Source of the DNA: an uncultured Bacteroidales bacterium
GTDB lineage: Bacteria > Bacteroidota > Bacteroidia > Bacteroidales > F082
Length of the DNA: 36,028 nucleotides
Assembly: GCA_946185535.1 (NCBI GenBank)
Contig: CAMHJX010000031.1
Span: 1 to 36,028, forward strand
Direction of reading: 5' to 3'
The notes under the pieces were generated by a model. It was not told where the DNA came from and ran no database searches. It worked only from the letters and a program-made list of their open reading frames with translations. The stretch's first letter is position 1; the number at the start of each line of letters is the position of its first letter. This document shows, piece after piece, positions 3,874 through 28,637 of this stretch. Made by a program: the position numbers and the translations under genes.

Positions 3874-4743
3874 ATGAAGAAAGTATATAAAGTTGCAGGT
3901 TTTGATTTTGCCATCATCATGCCTAACGATGATAGGACTTGGGAGACACTACAGAACTATGAACCGTTTGTTACAGAAGATAATGGCAACTATGTTTTTA
4001 CTGTCGAGTTGATTGATGCGATGCCGGATACGGCTGACAAGCAGAAGGTGACGACAAGTTGTGAAGCTCCTGAAGCACCGCGTTTTGATGTTTACGATTG
4101 GAAAGGGCAATGGCTGTTTGAGGGTGCTCCAACTTTTGAGGCTCCAGTGCGGTTCTATTTGATTACGGACAAAACTTTTACCAAGGCTCAGTTCCGTATG
4201 CTTGGTAGCACGAGATTTTCTTTCAATTCAGTGATGATGTTGATGTTTGCTTTTGCAACAGAACGTAGAAATACACTATTGATGCATTCTTCTGTCGTAG
4301 TGAAGGAAGGGAAGGGCTATCTTTTCTTGGGCAAGAGCGGTACTGGCAAGAGTACGCACAGCCAATTGTGGCTTAATCACTTGGAAGGATGTGAGCTGCT
4401 CAATGACGATAATCCCGTGCTTCGGTTTGAAGAAAACGGTGAGACGCGTGTTTATGGTTCTCCATGGAGTGGTAAGACACCTTGTTATCGTAATTTGGAT
4501 TATCCCGTGGGTGCCATTGTTGACCTACATCAAGCTAAAGAAAACAAGATTCAAAGGATGTCTGTCGTTAAGGCTTATGCGACGATGTATATGTCTTCCT
4601 CTGGTATTAGGTTCCTCAAGGAATTGGCCGATGGAATTCATGCCACTACCGAAAAGATAGTATGTTCGGTACCAATGTATTCGTTGGATTGCTTACCTAA
4701 TGCGGAAGCGGCTTATTTGTGTTGTAAAACAGTGACACAATAA
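3874..4743 (+). CDS. HPr-kinase-like P-loop kinase of a PqqD cluster
   Basis: 289 residues. The start at 3874 is chosen because it follows a -7 box; the frame is open further upstream into the lnt region but without a sensible start. The C-terminal half has the HPr kinase/PEPCK-type ATP site: Walker A GKSGTGKST (153-161), a Walker-B-like NDDNPVLRF with Asp178 and Asp179, then SPWSGKTPCYRN. There is no HPrK N-terminal domain and no HPr protein nearby, so this is not carbon catabolite control. In known lasso-peptide clusters of the paeninodin type an HPr-kinase homologue phosphorylates the precursor peptide; here the partners PqqD, nucleotidyltransferase and a small peptide are next door. By inference it modifies the peptide at 6735-6869. 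First gene of a four-gene operon; the next gene begins 5 bases after the stop. Confidence 0.7.
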   Translation: MKKVYKVAGFDFAIIMPNDDRTWETLQNYEPFVTEDNGNYVFTVELIDAMPDTADKQKVTTSCEAPEAPRFDVYDWKGQWLFEGAPTFEAPVRFYLITDKTFTKAQFRMLGSTRFSFNSVMMLMFAFATERRNTLLMHSSVVVKEGKGYLFLGKSGTGKSTHSQLWLNHLEGCELLNDDNPVLRFEENGETRVYGSPWSGKTPCYRNLDYPVGAIVDLHQAKENKIQRMSVVKAYATMYMSSSGIRFLKELADGIHATTEKIVCSVPMYSLDCLPNAEAAYLCCKTVTQ

Positions 4744-4748
4744 TAATT

Positions 4749-5186
4749 ATGGATAAGATTGTCCTTCCGAATGATGTGCTTCTGAACGAAGTCGTCCAGT
4801 TGCTTCGTGAAGGTCGCGAAGTGGTTATCACCCCTAAAGGCAGAAGTATGCTTCCATTCATTCGTGGTGAGGTCGATCGCATAAAATTGCATCAACCTAG
4901 TAGTTTGAGGGTGGGAGACATTGTGTTAGCTTATTTTGAAGACCGTTATGTATTGCATCGTATAGTTGCTATTAATGGTGAAGAAATTACCTTGATGGGC
5001 GATGGCAATTTGAAGGGTACAGAACAAGGAAGTCGTAAGGATGTGGTTGGTAAGGTGGTTGAGATTATTACGCCTGACCATCGTCAGCACAAGCCGGGTA
5101 AAGCATGGTTATGGCGACATACTTTGTTTCTTAGGAAATATCTGTTGAAAGTGTATAGAAAATGGAATAAGTTGAAAAACAAATAA
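4749..5186 (+). CDS. S26/S24-like serine peptidase (SipW-type Ser/His), soluble
   Basis: 145 residues. Motif GRSMLPFI with Ser33 matches the catalytic serine box of signal peptidase I/LexA-type enzymes, and RYVLHRIVAI with His70 matches the His that replaces Lys in SipW/ER-type signal peptidases; GDGN (about 86-89) fits the conserved GDN-like box. Unlike signal peptidases it has no N-terminal membrane helix; the C-terminus (KAWLWRHTLFLRKYLLKVYRKW) is aromatic and strongly basic and may bind membrane or nucleic acid. Such S24/S26-family genes recur beside PqqD and HPr-kinase-like genes. It may cut the leader of the small peptide, but that is inference. Five bases after the kinase stop and 20 before the PqqD gene, so co-transcribed. 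Confidence 0.65.
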   Translation: MDKIVLPNDVLLNEVVQLLREGREVVITPKGRSMLPFIRGEVDRIKLHQPSSLRVGDIVLAYFEDRYVLHRIVAINGEEITLMGDGNLKGTEQGSRKDVVGKVVEIITPDHRQHKPGKAWLWRHTLFLRKYLLKVYRKWNKLKNK

Positions 5187-5206
5187 TTCTAATAATATTA
5201 ATTGAT

Positions 5207-5482
5207 ATGAGATTTAAAAAAGGTTATAGATTGCGTTCTTTAGGTCAGGAGTTTATCCTAATTGCTGAAGGACTGGACGCGGTGGATTTCAGCCGTATGA
5301 TTTCAATGAACGAGAGTGCTGCTTTCCTTTGGAAGGAAGTGGAAGGTAAGGATTTCGATGCAGAAATACTTGCCACACTTTTGATGGACAACTATGGCAT
5401 TGCCCGTGAAACAGCTCAGAATGATGTCGCAGCGTTACTGGAGTCATGGTCGGCTGCAGGCCTCATAGAGGAAGAGAAATGA
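5207..5482 (+). CDS. PqqD family protein (RiPP recognition element)
   Basis: 91 residues, the usual size for free-standing PqqD-like proteins. Signature features: an N-terminal three-stranded part (RLRSLGQEFILIAEG), then MNESAAFLWKEVEGKDF matching the N-[ED]-[ST]-AAxxW motif, then helices ending in DVAALLESWSAAGLIEEE. PqqD-like RRE domains bind leader peptides of ribosomally made, modified peptides and deliver them to tailoring enzymes; in lasso systems the B1 protein has this role and reads a YxxP leader motif. A YxxP peptide is encoded 1.25 kb downstream. The gene sits between the peptidase and nucleotidyltransferase genes in the same orientation. Confidence 0.85.
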   Translation: MRFKKGYRLRSLGQEFILIAEGLDAVDFSRMISMNESAAFLWKEVEGKDFDAEILATLLMDNYGIARETAQNDVAALLESWSAAGLIEEEK

Positions 5483-5514
5483 GTTTAATGTATTAATATT
5501 AATAAGGTGTAGTC

Positions 5515-6621
5515 ATGTCGACTGTCGAACAGCATTATTTCGCATTGCTTCGTTCTGCCCTTTGGGACACGTCGGTTTCCCTTGTTGGTGAAATCGATTG
5601 GGAAGCTGTTATGAAGATGGCCGAGTTCCATAGCAATAATGTGTTGGTCGCCGATGTGGCTTCACGAATGACTGACGAAAGCAAGCCTTCACCCGTAATT
5701 CAGGCCAAGATGCAGTCGCTAATGCGCAGTAATTTGTTCCACCTTATGCAACTGAGACAAATTTTGGTGTCGGCGGTGAAGTTGTTGCGTGAACATGACA
5801 TTGAGCCGGTGGTGCTGAAAGGTTTTGGCTTAGCCCTGCTTTATCCCAATCCGAGCTTACGTCAGATCGGGGATATAGATCTTTTTATAGGGGTTGCGAA
5901 TTTTCATAAGGCTTGTACATTACTACGCACGTTGCCAGGCAGCTACAATTGGGGCGAGGAAATTGATGTGGGCAGGCATTACAACATTGAATTCGGAAGT
6001 ATCCCATTGGAGGTACACCGCGTGAGTGCTGATATTGAAAATGCGAGACTTTATCCTCATTATGCCGCTATGGAGCAGGAGGGTTTGATTGACCATCCAC
6101 AGCGCATCGATTATGAAGGCTTTGAGATATCCATTCCTTCCAAAGAGTTTGTGGTGTTCTTCACGTTTTATCATGCTTGGCACCACTATCTGGAAACGGG
6201 TGTGGGGTGGCGGCAACTCAGTGACGTTACAATGGCTCTTCATTCTTATCATGGGCAACTAGACTTGGATAAATTGCGAAAATGGCTCGACTACATGCGA
6301 GTCATGACCCCTTGGCAAACCTTTGGTTATTTGTTGGTGGAATGCCTTGGACTGCCAGAAGCAGAGATGCCCTTCTATGATGCCTCATGCCGAAAACGGG
6401 CACAAAAACTTTATCGCCAAATCATGAGGGAAGGTAATTTTAAGCGTACCAATGGTTTCAAACGTAAAAAGCCTAAGCATCTTTTTTGGCATAAAGTACA
6501 TGCTTTTATTAGCATTTTTGTGGATTTTTCCCATCATGTGAGCGTGTTTCCCGCTCAAGCATTTCGTGAGATGACCAATACAATTTCGAATAGTTTTGGA
6601 AAAAATTTGAAAAAAAAATGA
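5515..6621 (+). CDS. Nucleotidyltransferase family protein (NTP_transf_5-like)
   Basis: 368 residues. The core motif VVLKGFGLALLYP...RQIGDIDLFIG (about residues 99-124; Lys102, Asp120 and Asp122) is the family signature of uncharacterised NTP_transf_5 proteins, with the GD-x-D metal site of the polymerase-beta-type nucleotidyltransferases. A later His/Trp-rich helix HAWHHYLETGVGWRQLSDV (about 221-239) is also typical. The C-terminus is basic. Homologues are found in paeninodin-like lasso clusters next to the HPr-kinase homologue; their reaction is poorly known. Last gene of the operon; start at 5515 follows an AAGGTG at 5504-5509. The stop is followed by the promoter of the small peptide gene. 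Confidence 0.75.
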   Translation: MSTVEQHYFALLRSALWDTSVSLVGEIDWEAVMKMAEFHSNNVLVADVASRMTDESKPSPVIQAKMQSLMRSNLFHLMQLRQILVSAVKLLREHDIEPVVLKGFGLALLYPNPSLRQIGDIDLFIGVANFHKACTLLRTLPGSYNWGEEIDVGRHYNIEFGSIPLEVHRVSADIENARLYPHYAAMEQEGLIDHPQRIDYEGFEISIPSKEFVVFFTFYHAWHHYLETGVGWRQLSDVTMALHSYHGQLDLDKLRKWLDYMRVMTPWQTFGYLLVECLGLPEAEMPFYDASCRKRAQKLYRQIMREGNFKRTNGFKRKKPKHLFWHKVHAFISIFVDFSHHVSVFPAQAFREMTNTISNSFGKNLKKK

Positions 6622-6651
6622 AATTTTGTGTTTCAGTATGAATTAATTGTT

Positions 6652-6659
6652 TATTTTTG
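6652..6659 (+). promoter_or_regulatory. -7 box of the small peptide gene
   Basis: TATTTTTG fits TAnnTTTG, 75 bases before the peptide ATG. A TTTG at 6625-6628 is 23 bases upstream, a little far. The peptide and the lipoprotein after it may thus be transcribed apart from the enzyme operon. Confidence 0.5.
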
Positions 6660-6734
6660 CAGCGTCAAACAGTGTGAAAAGGACACGAACAAATAACTAA
6701 TCAACAAAAGTCTAACAAATTAAAAGTAAACAAA

Positions 6735-6869
6735 ATGAAAAAAATGAACAAAATGTATGCTGCTCCCAAAGCTGAAGTGGTTGAGCTCAACATGAACAAG
6801 GATTTCATGCAAGGTGGTACTGGTAACTTAATTACTCCGTCGTTTGAACAAGAAGACGCAGACATGTAA
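6735..6869 (+). CDS. Candidate RiPP precursor peptide, 44 residues
   Basis: Too short for usual gene calling. It reads MKKMNKMYAAP at the N-terminus, KAEVVELNMNKDFM in the middle, and QGGTGNLITPSFEQEDADM at the C-terminus, ending TAA. Starts at M4 or M7 are possible. Tyr8-Ala-Ala-Pro11 is a YxxP motif, the start of the leader motif read by lasso B1 (PqqD-like) proteins. The tail holds Gly, Thr, Ser and acidic residues; Gly30 to Glu38 would give a nine-residue Gly-to-Glu ring if a cyclase existed, but the lasso Thr at -2 does not fit well and no cyclase is in the window. Thr29, Thr34 and Ser36 are possible phosphorylation sites for the nearby kinase. I recall similar short MKKxYxxPxxEVVEL peptides in other Bacteroidales. 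The coding status is well supported; the precursor role is inferred. Confidence 0.6.
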   Translation: MKKMNKMYAAPKAEVVELNMNKDFMQGGTGNLITPSFEQEDADM

Positions 6870-6925: not shown

Positions 6926-7924
6926 ATGAAAAAAGTAATGAAATGTTTAGGCATGATGGCGTTGGTCGCTTTGGCTTTCACCTCATGCAAAAAAGCAGAA
7001 ACTAAATCGAGTATTACAGTTGCTTCAGAGGATCTCATCACCGTTGATATGGATGAAGACAGAGCTTTTCTCGATGATGCCTCAAATCACACTTTCTTTG
7101 AAATCGGTGATAGAGTCATGGTCTTCAATATCAGTAAAACGACTCCTAATATGAGTAACTGTGGCGTGTATGAATGTATCGATCAAGGAAGTAATGTTCA
7201 ATTTGTGAACAGTGGCTACGGTGATGCCGCTCAGGATGCCCTTGATGGCGGCTATTATGCCTACTATCCATTTGTCGAGCCCTTTGAAAATATTATTTCT
7301 GAGCTTCCGGATGGAGAAAACAAGAGCAAGTTCCATGTCCAAGCTGAACAAACCTATCGTGCAGATAAGGTTTCTTTGGGAGACTTGTACATGGCTGGCT
7401 ATTCCGATGCCCCTAATCTGGACGCTGCGGTGGCAAATTTCCAAATGCAGAACATCATGGGTGTTCTTCGCCTGTTGCCTTATGAAAATGCTCAAAGGAC
7501 TGTCACTAAGATTCAGGTTGTTGACAACCGCTTCCACCTTAGTGGTTGGGTTGAATTGATTATCCCTGAAGTTAATGCTACGGAGTTGAAAAGTACCTTC
7601 AACCTCTATAATCCGGCAGATCCGGACAATGCGACATTTGTCTCGAAAGTGAACGAAATTAAGAATAGAATGGGCTACAATGTTACCGATGGTGGCTATA
7701 GCATTACTCTTAATGTCCCGGAAGGTGTGAAATTGGGTGCTACTAAGGCTACCACTCCTGCCTTCAACATCGTTTTGCGTCCTATGGCTATGTCACAAGG
7801 TTTCCACATCATCTTCACATTTGCTGATGGTACTACCAAGGATGTTGACGCCTCTGCTATCCACAACTTCTGCATTAAACCTAACACTCGTTTGAACTTA
7901 GGTTTGAACATGGATAATTACTAA
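6926..7924 (+). CDS. Fimbrillin-like lipoprotein
   Basis: 332 residues. A lipoprotein signal (MKKVMKCLGMMALVALAFTS, Cys21 followed by KK) is followed by beta-rich sequence: a region with FEIGDRVMVFN, a GGYYAYYPF motif, MQNIMGVLRLLP in the middle and NTRLNLGLNMDNY at the end. The YAYYPF and F.MQNI.GVLRL pattern is typical of Bacteroidales fimbrillin (Mfa-like) or related surface lipoproteins, which are sorted to the outer surface and may be processed by gingipain-like proteases. It lies 56 bases after the small peptide with no terminator between, so it may be co-transcribed and could be the surface partner of the peptide system. Function otherwise unknown. Confidence 0.6.
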   Translation: MKKVMKCLGMMALVALAFTSCKKAETKSSITVASEDLITVDMDEDRAFLDDASNHTFFEIGDRVMVFNISKTTPNMSNCGVYECIDQGSNVQFVNSGYGDAAQDALDGGYYAYYPFVEPFENIISELPDGENKSKFHVQAEQTYRADKVSLGDLYMAGYSDAPNLDAAVANFQMQNIMGVLRLLPYENAQRTVTKIQVVDNRFHLSGWVELIIPEVNATELKSTFNLYNPADPDNATFVSKVNEIKNRMGYNVTDGGYSITLNVPEGVKLGATKATTPAFNIVLRPMAMSQGFHIIFTFADGTTKDVDASAIHNFCIKPNTRLNLGLNMDNY

Positions 7925-8074: not shown

Positions 8075-8082
8075 TCAAGAGG

Positions 8083-8155
<73 letters not shown>

Positions 8156-28553: not shown

Positions 28554-28626
28554 GCTTCCGTAGCTCAGTTGGTAGAGCACCTGACTCTTAATCAGGGTGT
28601 CCAGGGTTCGACCCCCTGCGGGAGTA
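28554..28626 (+). tRNA. tRNA-Lys (anticodon CTT)
   Basis: 73 bases. Acceptor GCTTCCG with CGGGAGT (two G-T pairs) and discriminator A, D arm GCTC..GAGC with GTTGGTA, anticodon stem CCTGA/TCAGG with loop CTCTTAA giving CTT, T arm CAGGG/CCCTG with TTCGACC. CCA is not encoded. Accessory DNA begins directly after it, so it is a likely integration site. Confidence 0.94.
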
Positions 28627-28637
28627 CAAATTTTCAA

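Follow-up and report, generated by a model that had tools for sequence, protein, structure and literature searches.

The locus and its putative enzymes

The DNA under study is a 36,028-nucleotide stretch from an uncultured, rumen-type Bacteroidales bacterium (assembly GCA_946185535.1, contig CAMHJX010000031.1), hereafter the window, and we have analyzed in it a run of six plus-strand genes, K-S-Q-N-p-L, as a candidate pathway for a ribosomally synthesized and post-translationally modified peptide (RiPP). K (3874-4743) codes for a putative HprK-like peptide kinase of 289 residues, S (4749-5186) for a putative SipW-type peptidase of 145 residues, Q (5207-5482) for a PqqD-like protein of 91 residues that would be a discrete RiPP recognition element (RRE), N (5515-6621) for a 368-residue protein of the NTP_transf_5 family, presumably a second tailoring enzyme, p (6735-6869) for a 44-residue YxxP precursor peptide, and L (6926-7924) for a fimbrillin-like lipoprotein of 332 residues, so named from its lipobox and predicted fold. 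The gaps between K, S, Q, N and p are 5, 20, 32 and 113 nucleotides, in that order, and the six genes are flanked by lnt, which codes for apolipoprotein N-acyltransferase on the opposite strand, and by a tRNA-Phe gene just downstream (8081-8155, minus strand). An earlier annotation made from the letters alone (the sequence-only reading) had listed kinase, peptidase, PqqD, nucleotidyltransferase and peptide genes, all five of which are indeed in place; it had also stated that lasso cyclase and B2 protease genes are missing from the cassette, and neither is found within it.

The nearest NCBIfam models of K are ScmC (4.3e-7) and HprK_rel_A (9.8e-6), both under cut-off, and HprK/PEPCK-like Pfam models are likewise matched only below their cut-offs. 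Its residues His138, Lys159 (within GKSGTGKST), Asp178 and Asp179 are at least 97% conserved over 35 aligned rows and match by eye the His-Lys-Asp-Asp motif described for lasso-peptide kinases (PMC9266682). For S, the profile match to sigpep_I_arch (3.7e-6) and those to S24 and signal-peptidase models are also under cut-off, and Ser33, His70 and Asp85 are at least 97% conserved (34 aligned rows); we regard S from its sequence as a SipW-type peptidase with Ser/His/Asp residues, which probably acts as the leader peptidase. Q matches PqqD (PF05402) at 1.8e-15, over cut-off, the sole solved relative found being the lasso RRE TfuB1 (6jx3_B, E 0.0013), and its Asn35 and Asp73, which do not vary over 13 rows, are aligned with an Asn and an Asp of TfuB1. 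By spacing, and not from an alignment with LppB itself, these two residues could correspond to N33 and D70 of LppB, which are reported to hold the Pro and Tyr of a YxxP leader (PMC13381572). N matches NTP_transf_5 (PF14907) at 8.7e-35, over cut-off, and its predicted model (mean predicted local distance difference test score, pLDDT, 91.6) has a nucleotidyltransferase fold; Lys102, Gly103, Asp120, Asp122, Glu166 and His168 are at least 97% conserved in 43 rows, and Lys102, Gly103, Asp120, Asp122 and His168 are invariant in a set of 22 rows.

The conservation of the locus was analyzed in a genus sample of 99 genomes, 46 of which have PF14907 matches, and in 247 genomes sampled across the order. 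Among 54 mapped sequences (53 stretches around PF14907 matches of the genus genomes, plus the window), K-S-Q-N occur in this order in 32, the window included, and in 31 of these 32 they are followed by p and then L (30 by search, one by hand), the sole exception being a contig that ends after K-S-Q-N (L056). The conservation of K-S-Q-N-p-L exceeds chance. Neighbouring gene clusters recur in most loci, lnt-like genes in 30 and others in 23 to 28, and the site of the cassette is thus probably inherited. Variant arrangements comprise N-K-S-Q followed by an ATP-binding cassette (ABC) gene in L046 and L055, the ABC domains being confirmed for the L055 gene, while L032 and L041 have N-ABC and no K. 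In 80 mapped relatives K, S and Q are together in most cases, with an ABC gene at most 2.5 kb behind K in 48. Bacteroidales of the rumen and gut repeatedly carry a matching enzyme set, and cultured carriers include Segatella baroniae B14 (L202) and Phocaeicola massiliensis (L229). Two further expectations of the sequence-only reading are borne out by these data, namely that the four enzyme genes co-occur in other genomes and that a conserved YxxP peptide accompanies them.

Putative precursor peptides and the adjoining lipoproteins

In the 32 cassette-linked peptides, which include that of L032 adjoining N and an ABC gene and not K, residues Y8, A10, P11 and E14 of p are invariant. Mean pairwise identity (496 pairs) falls from 0.78 over residues 1-17 to 0.29 over residues 18-25 and 0.11 beyond, and we place the border of leader and core accordingly, the leader comprising about residues 1-25 and the core about residues 26-44. 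Within ten leader codons of the 32 sequences, synonymous differences between codon pairs outnumber non-synonymous ones (1484 against 1194), an excess which fits a translated, conserved leader. The cores beside the cassette have 13-25 residues, are rich in Gly, Thr, Ser, Glu and Asp, contain no Cys and average about -3 in net charge; Ser or Thr is present in all 32, and a conserved C-terminal Ser is absent from these sequences. Judged by sequence, p and its relatives look like RiPP precursors, with a conserved leader and a variable core. Most peptides contain the context [V/I]L[C/M]xS, whose Ser lies 19 residues after the Tyr (Tyr+19): a Ser at this position is found in 41 of 42 dispersed peptides, a Ser-bearing example being that of L084 (4880-5071), and in 20 of 24 peptides from genomes outside the genus set (originally 25, with E up to 0.02 and some near-copies, from which L207 of the window genome was removed). 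In the linear polyphosphorylated peptides (LPP) described in Bacillota (Popov et al. 2026, PMC13381572) the distance from Tyr to Ser is 18 residues, so that most of the family fits LPP chemistry. Peptides with E above 1e-3 were excluded from the Ser counts of the cassette-linked and dispersed sets and from the promoter-box and lipoprotein-pairing counts given below.

The peptides are not confined to the cassette. A first peptide model matched 86 places in 33 of the 99 genus genomes, 54 of them off cassette-type loci (42 of the 54 weaker matches were retrieved, in 40 regions), and a wider model matched one to eight copies in 35 genomes, with five in the window genome. The sequence-only reading, which had placed the peptide beside the enzymes, is therefore right for the cassette and has to be corrected for the genome as a whole. 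All 34 genus genomes whose K match reaches 437 bits, a limit chosen after the scores were known, contain peptides (E ≤ 1e-3), as does one of the 65 others. In this lone exception, G012, a contig breaks off within an N gene that closely follows a YxxP peptide; on this contig (L076 1289-4089) two YxxP peptides are clear and a third is weak. In the order sample, K is found in 24 genomes and the peptide in four, all of them K carriers, one being the window genome and one having a doubtful match inside a 370-residue frame. With E up to 0.01, a peptide match is obtained in 23 of 25 K-bearing genomes, which were hand-chosen from the 80 relatives for both the peptide and the B2 searches.

The genomes G020, G078 and G097 (completeness 98%, 85% and 80%) contain neither K nor N and give no peptide match, and S, Q and p are missing from the site. 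The corresponding stretches (L230, L231 and L232) have lnt directly adjoining L, with K-S-Q-N-p missing; behind L there is a contig end in G020 and the usual outer-membrane gene in G078 and G097. An lnt tree (35 rows of this one gene, midpoint-rooted, other K-less genomes left out) places the three among carriers, well-supported branches forcing at least two changes of unassigned direction. From the patterns of the carriers and of these three genomes, enzymes and peptides appear to be gained or lost together, L being able to persist.

The predicted model of L resembles FimA/Mfa-type fimbrillins and Bacteroides cell-adhesion proteins (4k4k, 3sy6, 3t2l, 3ufi), and its N-terminus is lipoprotein-like, with a lipobox read by eye. 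The sequence-only reading had suspected a link between the peptide and this surface lipoprotein, and the pairing indeed recurs elsewhere: by a loose lipobox pattern, a lipoprotein-like open reading frame (ORF) directly follows 67 of 74 peptides, and among the 24 peptides from outside the genus 19 are followed by a lipoprotein (by eye) and three by a secreted-looking protein without lipobox. In the window genome there are five L-profile matches, each directly behind one of the five peptides, in a search that scored part of the candidates in some genomes (22 of 34 in this one). Core similarity tracks L similarity, with Mantel values of 0.34 for 67 pairs and 0.49 for 36 dispersed pairs. Among ten lipoproteins chosen from the dispersed set for domain scanning, some bear adhesin-like domains (fn3, beta-helix, Cleaved_Adhesin). 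One peptide-linked lipoprotein (L118 5209-7788) has two Cleaved_Adhesin stretches (PF07675, 5.7e-76), and L070 (8811-11206) holds two tandem L genes behind one peptide.

Upstream of p the sequence contains TATTTTTG (6652-6659, plus strand), which we take to be a -7-like box of a Bacteroidales promoter. The pattern TAnnTTTG occurs at most 90 nucleotides upstream of 39 of the 74 peptides, as compared with a mean of 2.0 after letter shuffling. Because such a promoter-like box precedes p, p-L may be transcribed apart from K-S-Q-N.

Proposed pathway and competing explanations

We consider it quite probable that K, S, Q and N together make up the enzymes of an LPP-like RiPP pathway which acts on p and its dispersed paralogues and has a surface lipoprotein as partner. 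By analogy with LPP, paeninodin and pseudomycoidin, from which we infer the individual steps, Q would bind the YxxP leader of p and of the dispersed paralogues, K would phosphorylate a Ser just past the leader (mostly the [V/I]L[C/M]xS Ser at Tyr+19), N would decorate the phosphate further, for example with a sugar, and S would cleave the leader near the phosphosite. In LPP, polyphosphorylation of Ser3 of the core is reported to depend on the kinase, and leader removal by LppS to need the RRE (PMC13381572). As for the second tailoring step, the nucleotidyltransferase homologue PsmN of pseudomycoidin is reported to install hexoses (review PMC9266682) and deletion of lppN is described as giving no visible change in the LPP study (PMC13381572), so that nucleotidylation of the peptide is unproven. 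The export route and surface role of the core are a guess: a linear acidic core might be exported and might work with the adjoining surface lipoprotein as ligand, cap or cargo. A more specific version, in which one trans-acting LPP-like set modifies dispersed peptides that are each the dedicated partner of an adjoining fimbrillin-like adhesin, we put forward tentatively, as possible rather than probable; if true, LPP-type peptides would tune or decorate surface adhesins. The occurrence of several peptides per genome tied to surface lipoproteins is a genetic pointer to a cell-surface role, and the peptides form a large family in gut bacteria that lends itself to testing.

Several observations weigh against an LPP-like pathway at this locus. 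What the analysis establishes is gene content and conserved order, co-occurrence, the leader/core pattern, the pairing of peptides with lipoproteins, the conserved catalytic-motif residues and the predicted folds of L and N; product, phosphate and cleavage are predictions. The usual Ser at Tyr+19 is present in just 14 of the 32 peptides beside the cassette or N, being absent from 18, and the window's own p carries Gly at this position; this peptide may receive its modification at another residue, Thr29 being close by, or the site may have been lost from it. In G044, G046 and G050 the match to K is weaker, at 203-306 bits, and peptide matches are absent; beyond the genus, at E 1e-3, the peptide model gives a match in only four of the 24 genomes that carry K. 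Just 20 of the 80 loci have N at most 5 kb from K, and L persists beside lnt without peptide or enzymes in G020, G078 and G097. Also, no close exporter of the L055 type is found in the window genome (93% complete), the best match having 29% identity to the L055 protein, as compared with a median of 52% for its counterparts in 52 other loci.

The strong variation of the cores, the many copies per genome with different cores and the Mantel correlation of core and L would equally suit a secreted signal or antagonist with L as its receptor or immunity protein. We hold this unlikely, as shared descent per locus alone could yield the correlation, some L partners bear adhesin-like domains, and the cores beside the cassette have the acidic, Cys-free composition described above. 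To our knowledge, such cores are unlike most bacteriocins. Alternatively, p might be a structural part of a fimbrillin assembly, such as a strand or tip, which K-S-Q-N merely mature. The predicted FimA/Mfa-type fold of L and the position of p, mostly directly upstream of the lipoprotein gene, agree with this; however, inspection by eye shows neither a Sec signal in p nor a strand-like core, and L is present without p in three genomes, which makes such a role less probable still.

It is also conceivable that K, S, Q and N act on another substrate, the peptide being a bystander or a regulator of L, as the promoter-like box before p and the lack of the usual Ser in the window's p might suggest. 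We find this highly improbable, since within the genus the co-occurrence of peptide and K is nearly perfect, even where peptides lie at a distance from the cassette, both are jointly missing from three genomes that retain L, and the leader fits the RRE. To a degenerate lasso-peptide cluster we give next to no credence. The sole solved relative found for Q is a lasso RRE, kinase and nucleotidyltransferase homologues are known lasso tailoring enzymes (PMC9266682), and of two partial Asn_synthase (PF00733) matches on other contigs of the window genome one is over cut-off (125 of 354 positions, in a 356-residue frame), but the B2 protease (PF13471) is found in none of the 99 genus genomes and none of the 25 chosen K-bearing genomes, and most of the 80 relatives keep K, S and Q as a group. 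The Asn_synthase match over cut-off raised our estimate for this reading only slightly.

Related gene sets and known systems

Related gene sets are observed on plasmids and in other neighbourhoods. On the Phocaeicola massiliensis plasmid OY725995.1 (L229 1270-9309), whose record is unannotated, a single same-strand series reads p-lipoprotein-Q-N-ABC-K-S, the second gene being a lipoprotein-like ORF; this arrangement speaks for the proposed pathway. The same profiles recover an LPP-like set of K, Q, S and N on plasmid pNP243 of Butyrivibrio fibrisolvens D1, a member of the Bacillota (L227 9584-11607), where the S gene codes for an S24/S26 peptidase, a Cys-rich YxxP ORF of 57 residues lies between K and Q, and ABC genes and two NTP_transf_5-like genes are in the neighbourhood. 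In L079 (507-8760), which perhaps holds a further peptide pathway, PqqD-like and HprK-like genes are found among what by eye resemble radical S-adenosylmethionine (SAM) genes and an ABC gene. Elsewhere in the window there is a tRNA-Lys gene (28554-28627, plus strand).

Compared with the SynChlorMet system, ScmC is the best NCBIfam match of K and ScmD is among the weak matches of Q; the scores, however, are far below cut-off and the window cassette has no radical SAM gene. With FimA/Mfa-type fimbrillins, L shares its predicted fold and a lipoprotein-like N-terminus and differs in being paired with a YxxP peptide. The paeninodin- and pseudomycoidin-type lasso clusters, as reviewed in PMC9266682, likewise have an HprK-like kinase and a nucleotidyltransferase homologue, and lasso clusters share the PqqD-like B1 and a Y/WxxP-type leader (PMC13381572), whereas the cassette has neither cyclase nor B2, a SipW-type peptidase instead, and peptides without a conserved C-terminal Ser.

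The closest comparison is with LPP, whose set is described as an HprK-like kinase, the SipW-type peptidase LppS, a discrete RRE, a nucleoside triphosphate (NTP) transferase, an MsbA-like exporter and precursors with YxxP leaders, and whose role is unknown, the authors noting capsule-locus neighbours and speculating on a role in biofilms (PMC13381572). The sequence-only reading had proposed a distinct class of peptide modification; this class is already published as LPP in Bacillota, and the Bacteroidales set is therefore better regarded as a variant of it. Among the matches listed in the open-licence PMC literature, none reported LPP from Bacteroidota or joined RiPPs with fimbrillins. No MsbA-like exporter gene lies inside the window cassette and none was found in the window genome, and the peptides do not have the full YxxPxVLxHQxIxFETxxS leader given for LPP, what is common being YxxP and, mostly, a Ser one residue further. 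The LPP Discussion calls these peptides restricted to Bacillota. The Bacteroidales host, the dispersal of the peptides over the genome under one enzyme set, their pairing with lipoproteins and the lack of a matching exporter in the window genome are what is new here. In common with LPP as published, the system would combine a SipW-type peptidase, a discrete RRE, an HprK-like kinase and an NTP transferase, with no cyclase in the set, and its peptides have a YxxP leader, a conserved N-terminus, a variable C-terminus and a Ser close behind the leader.

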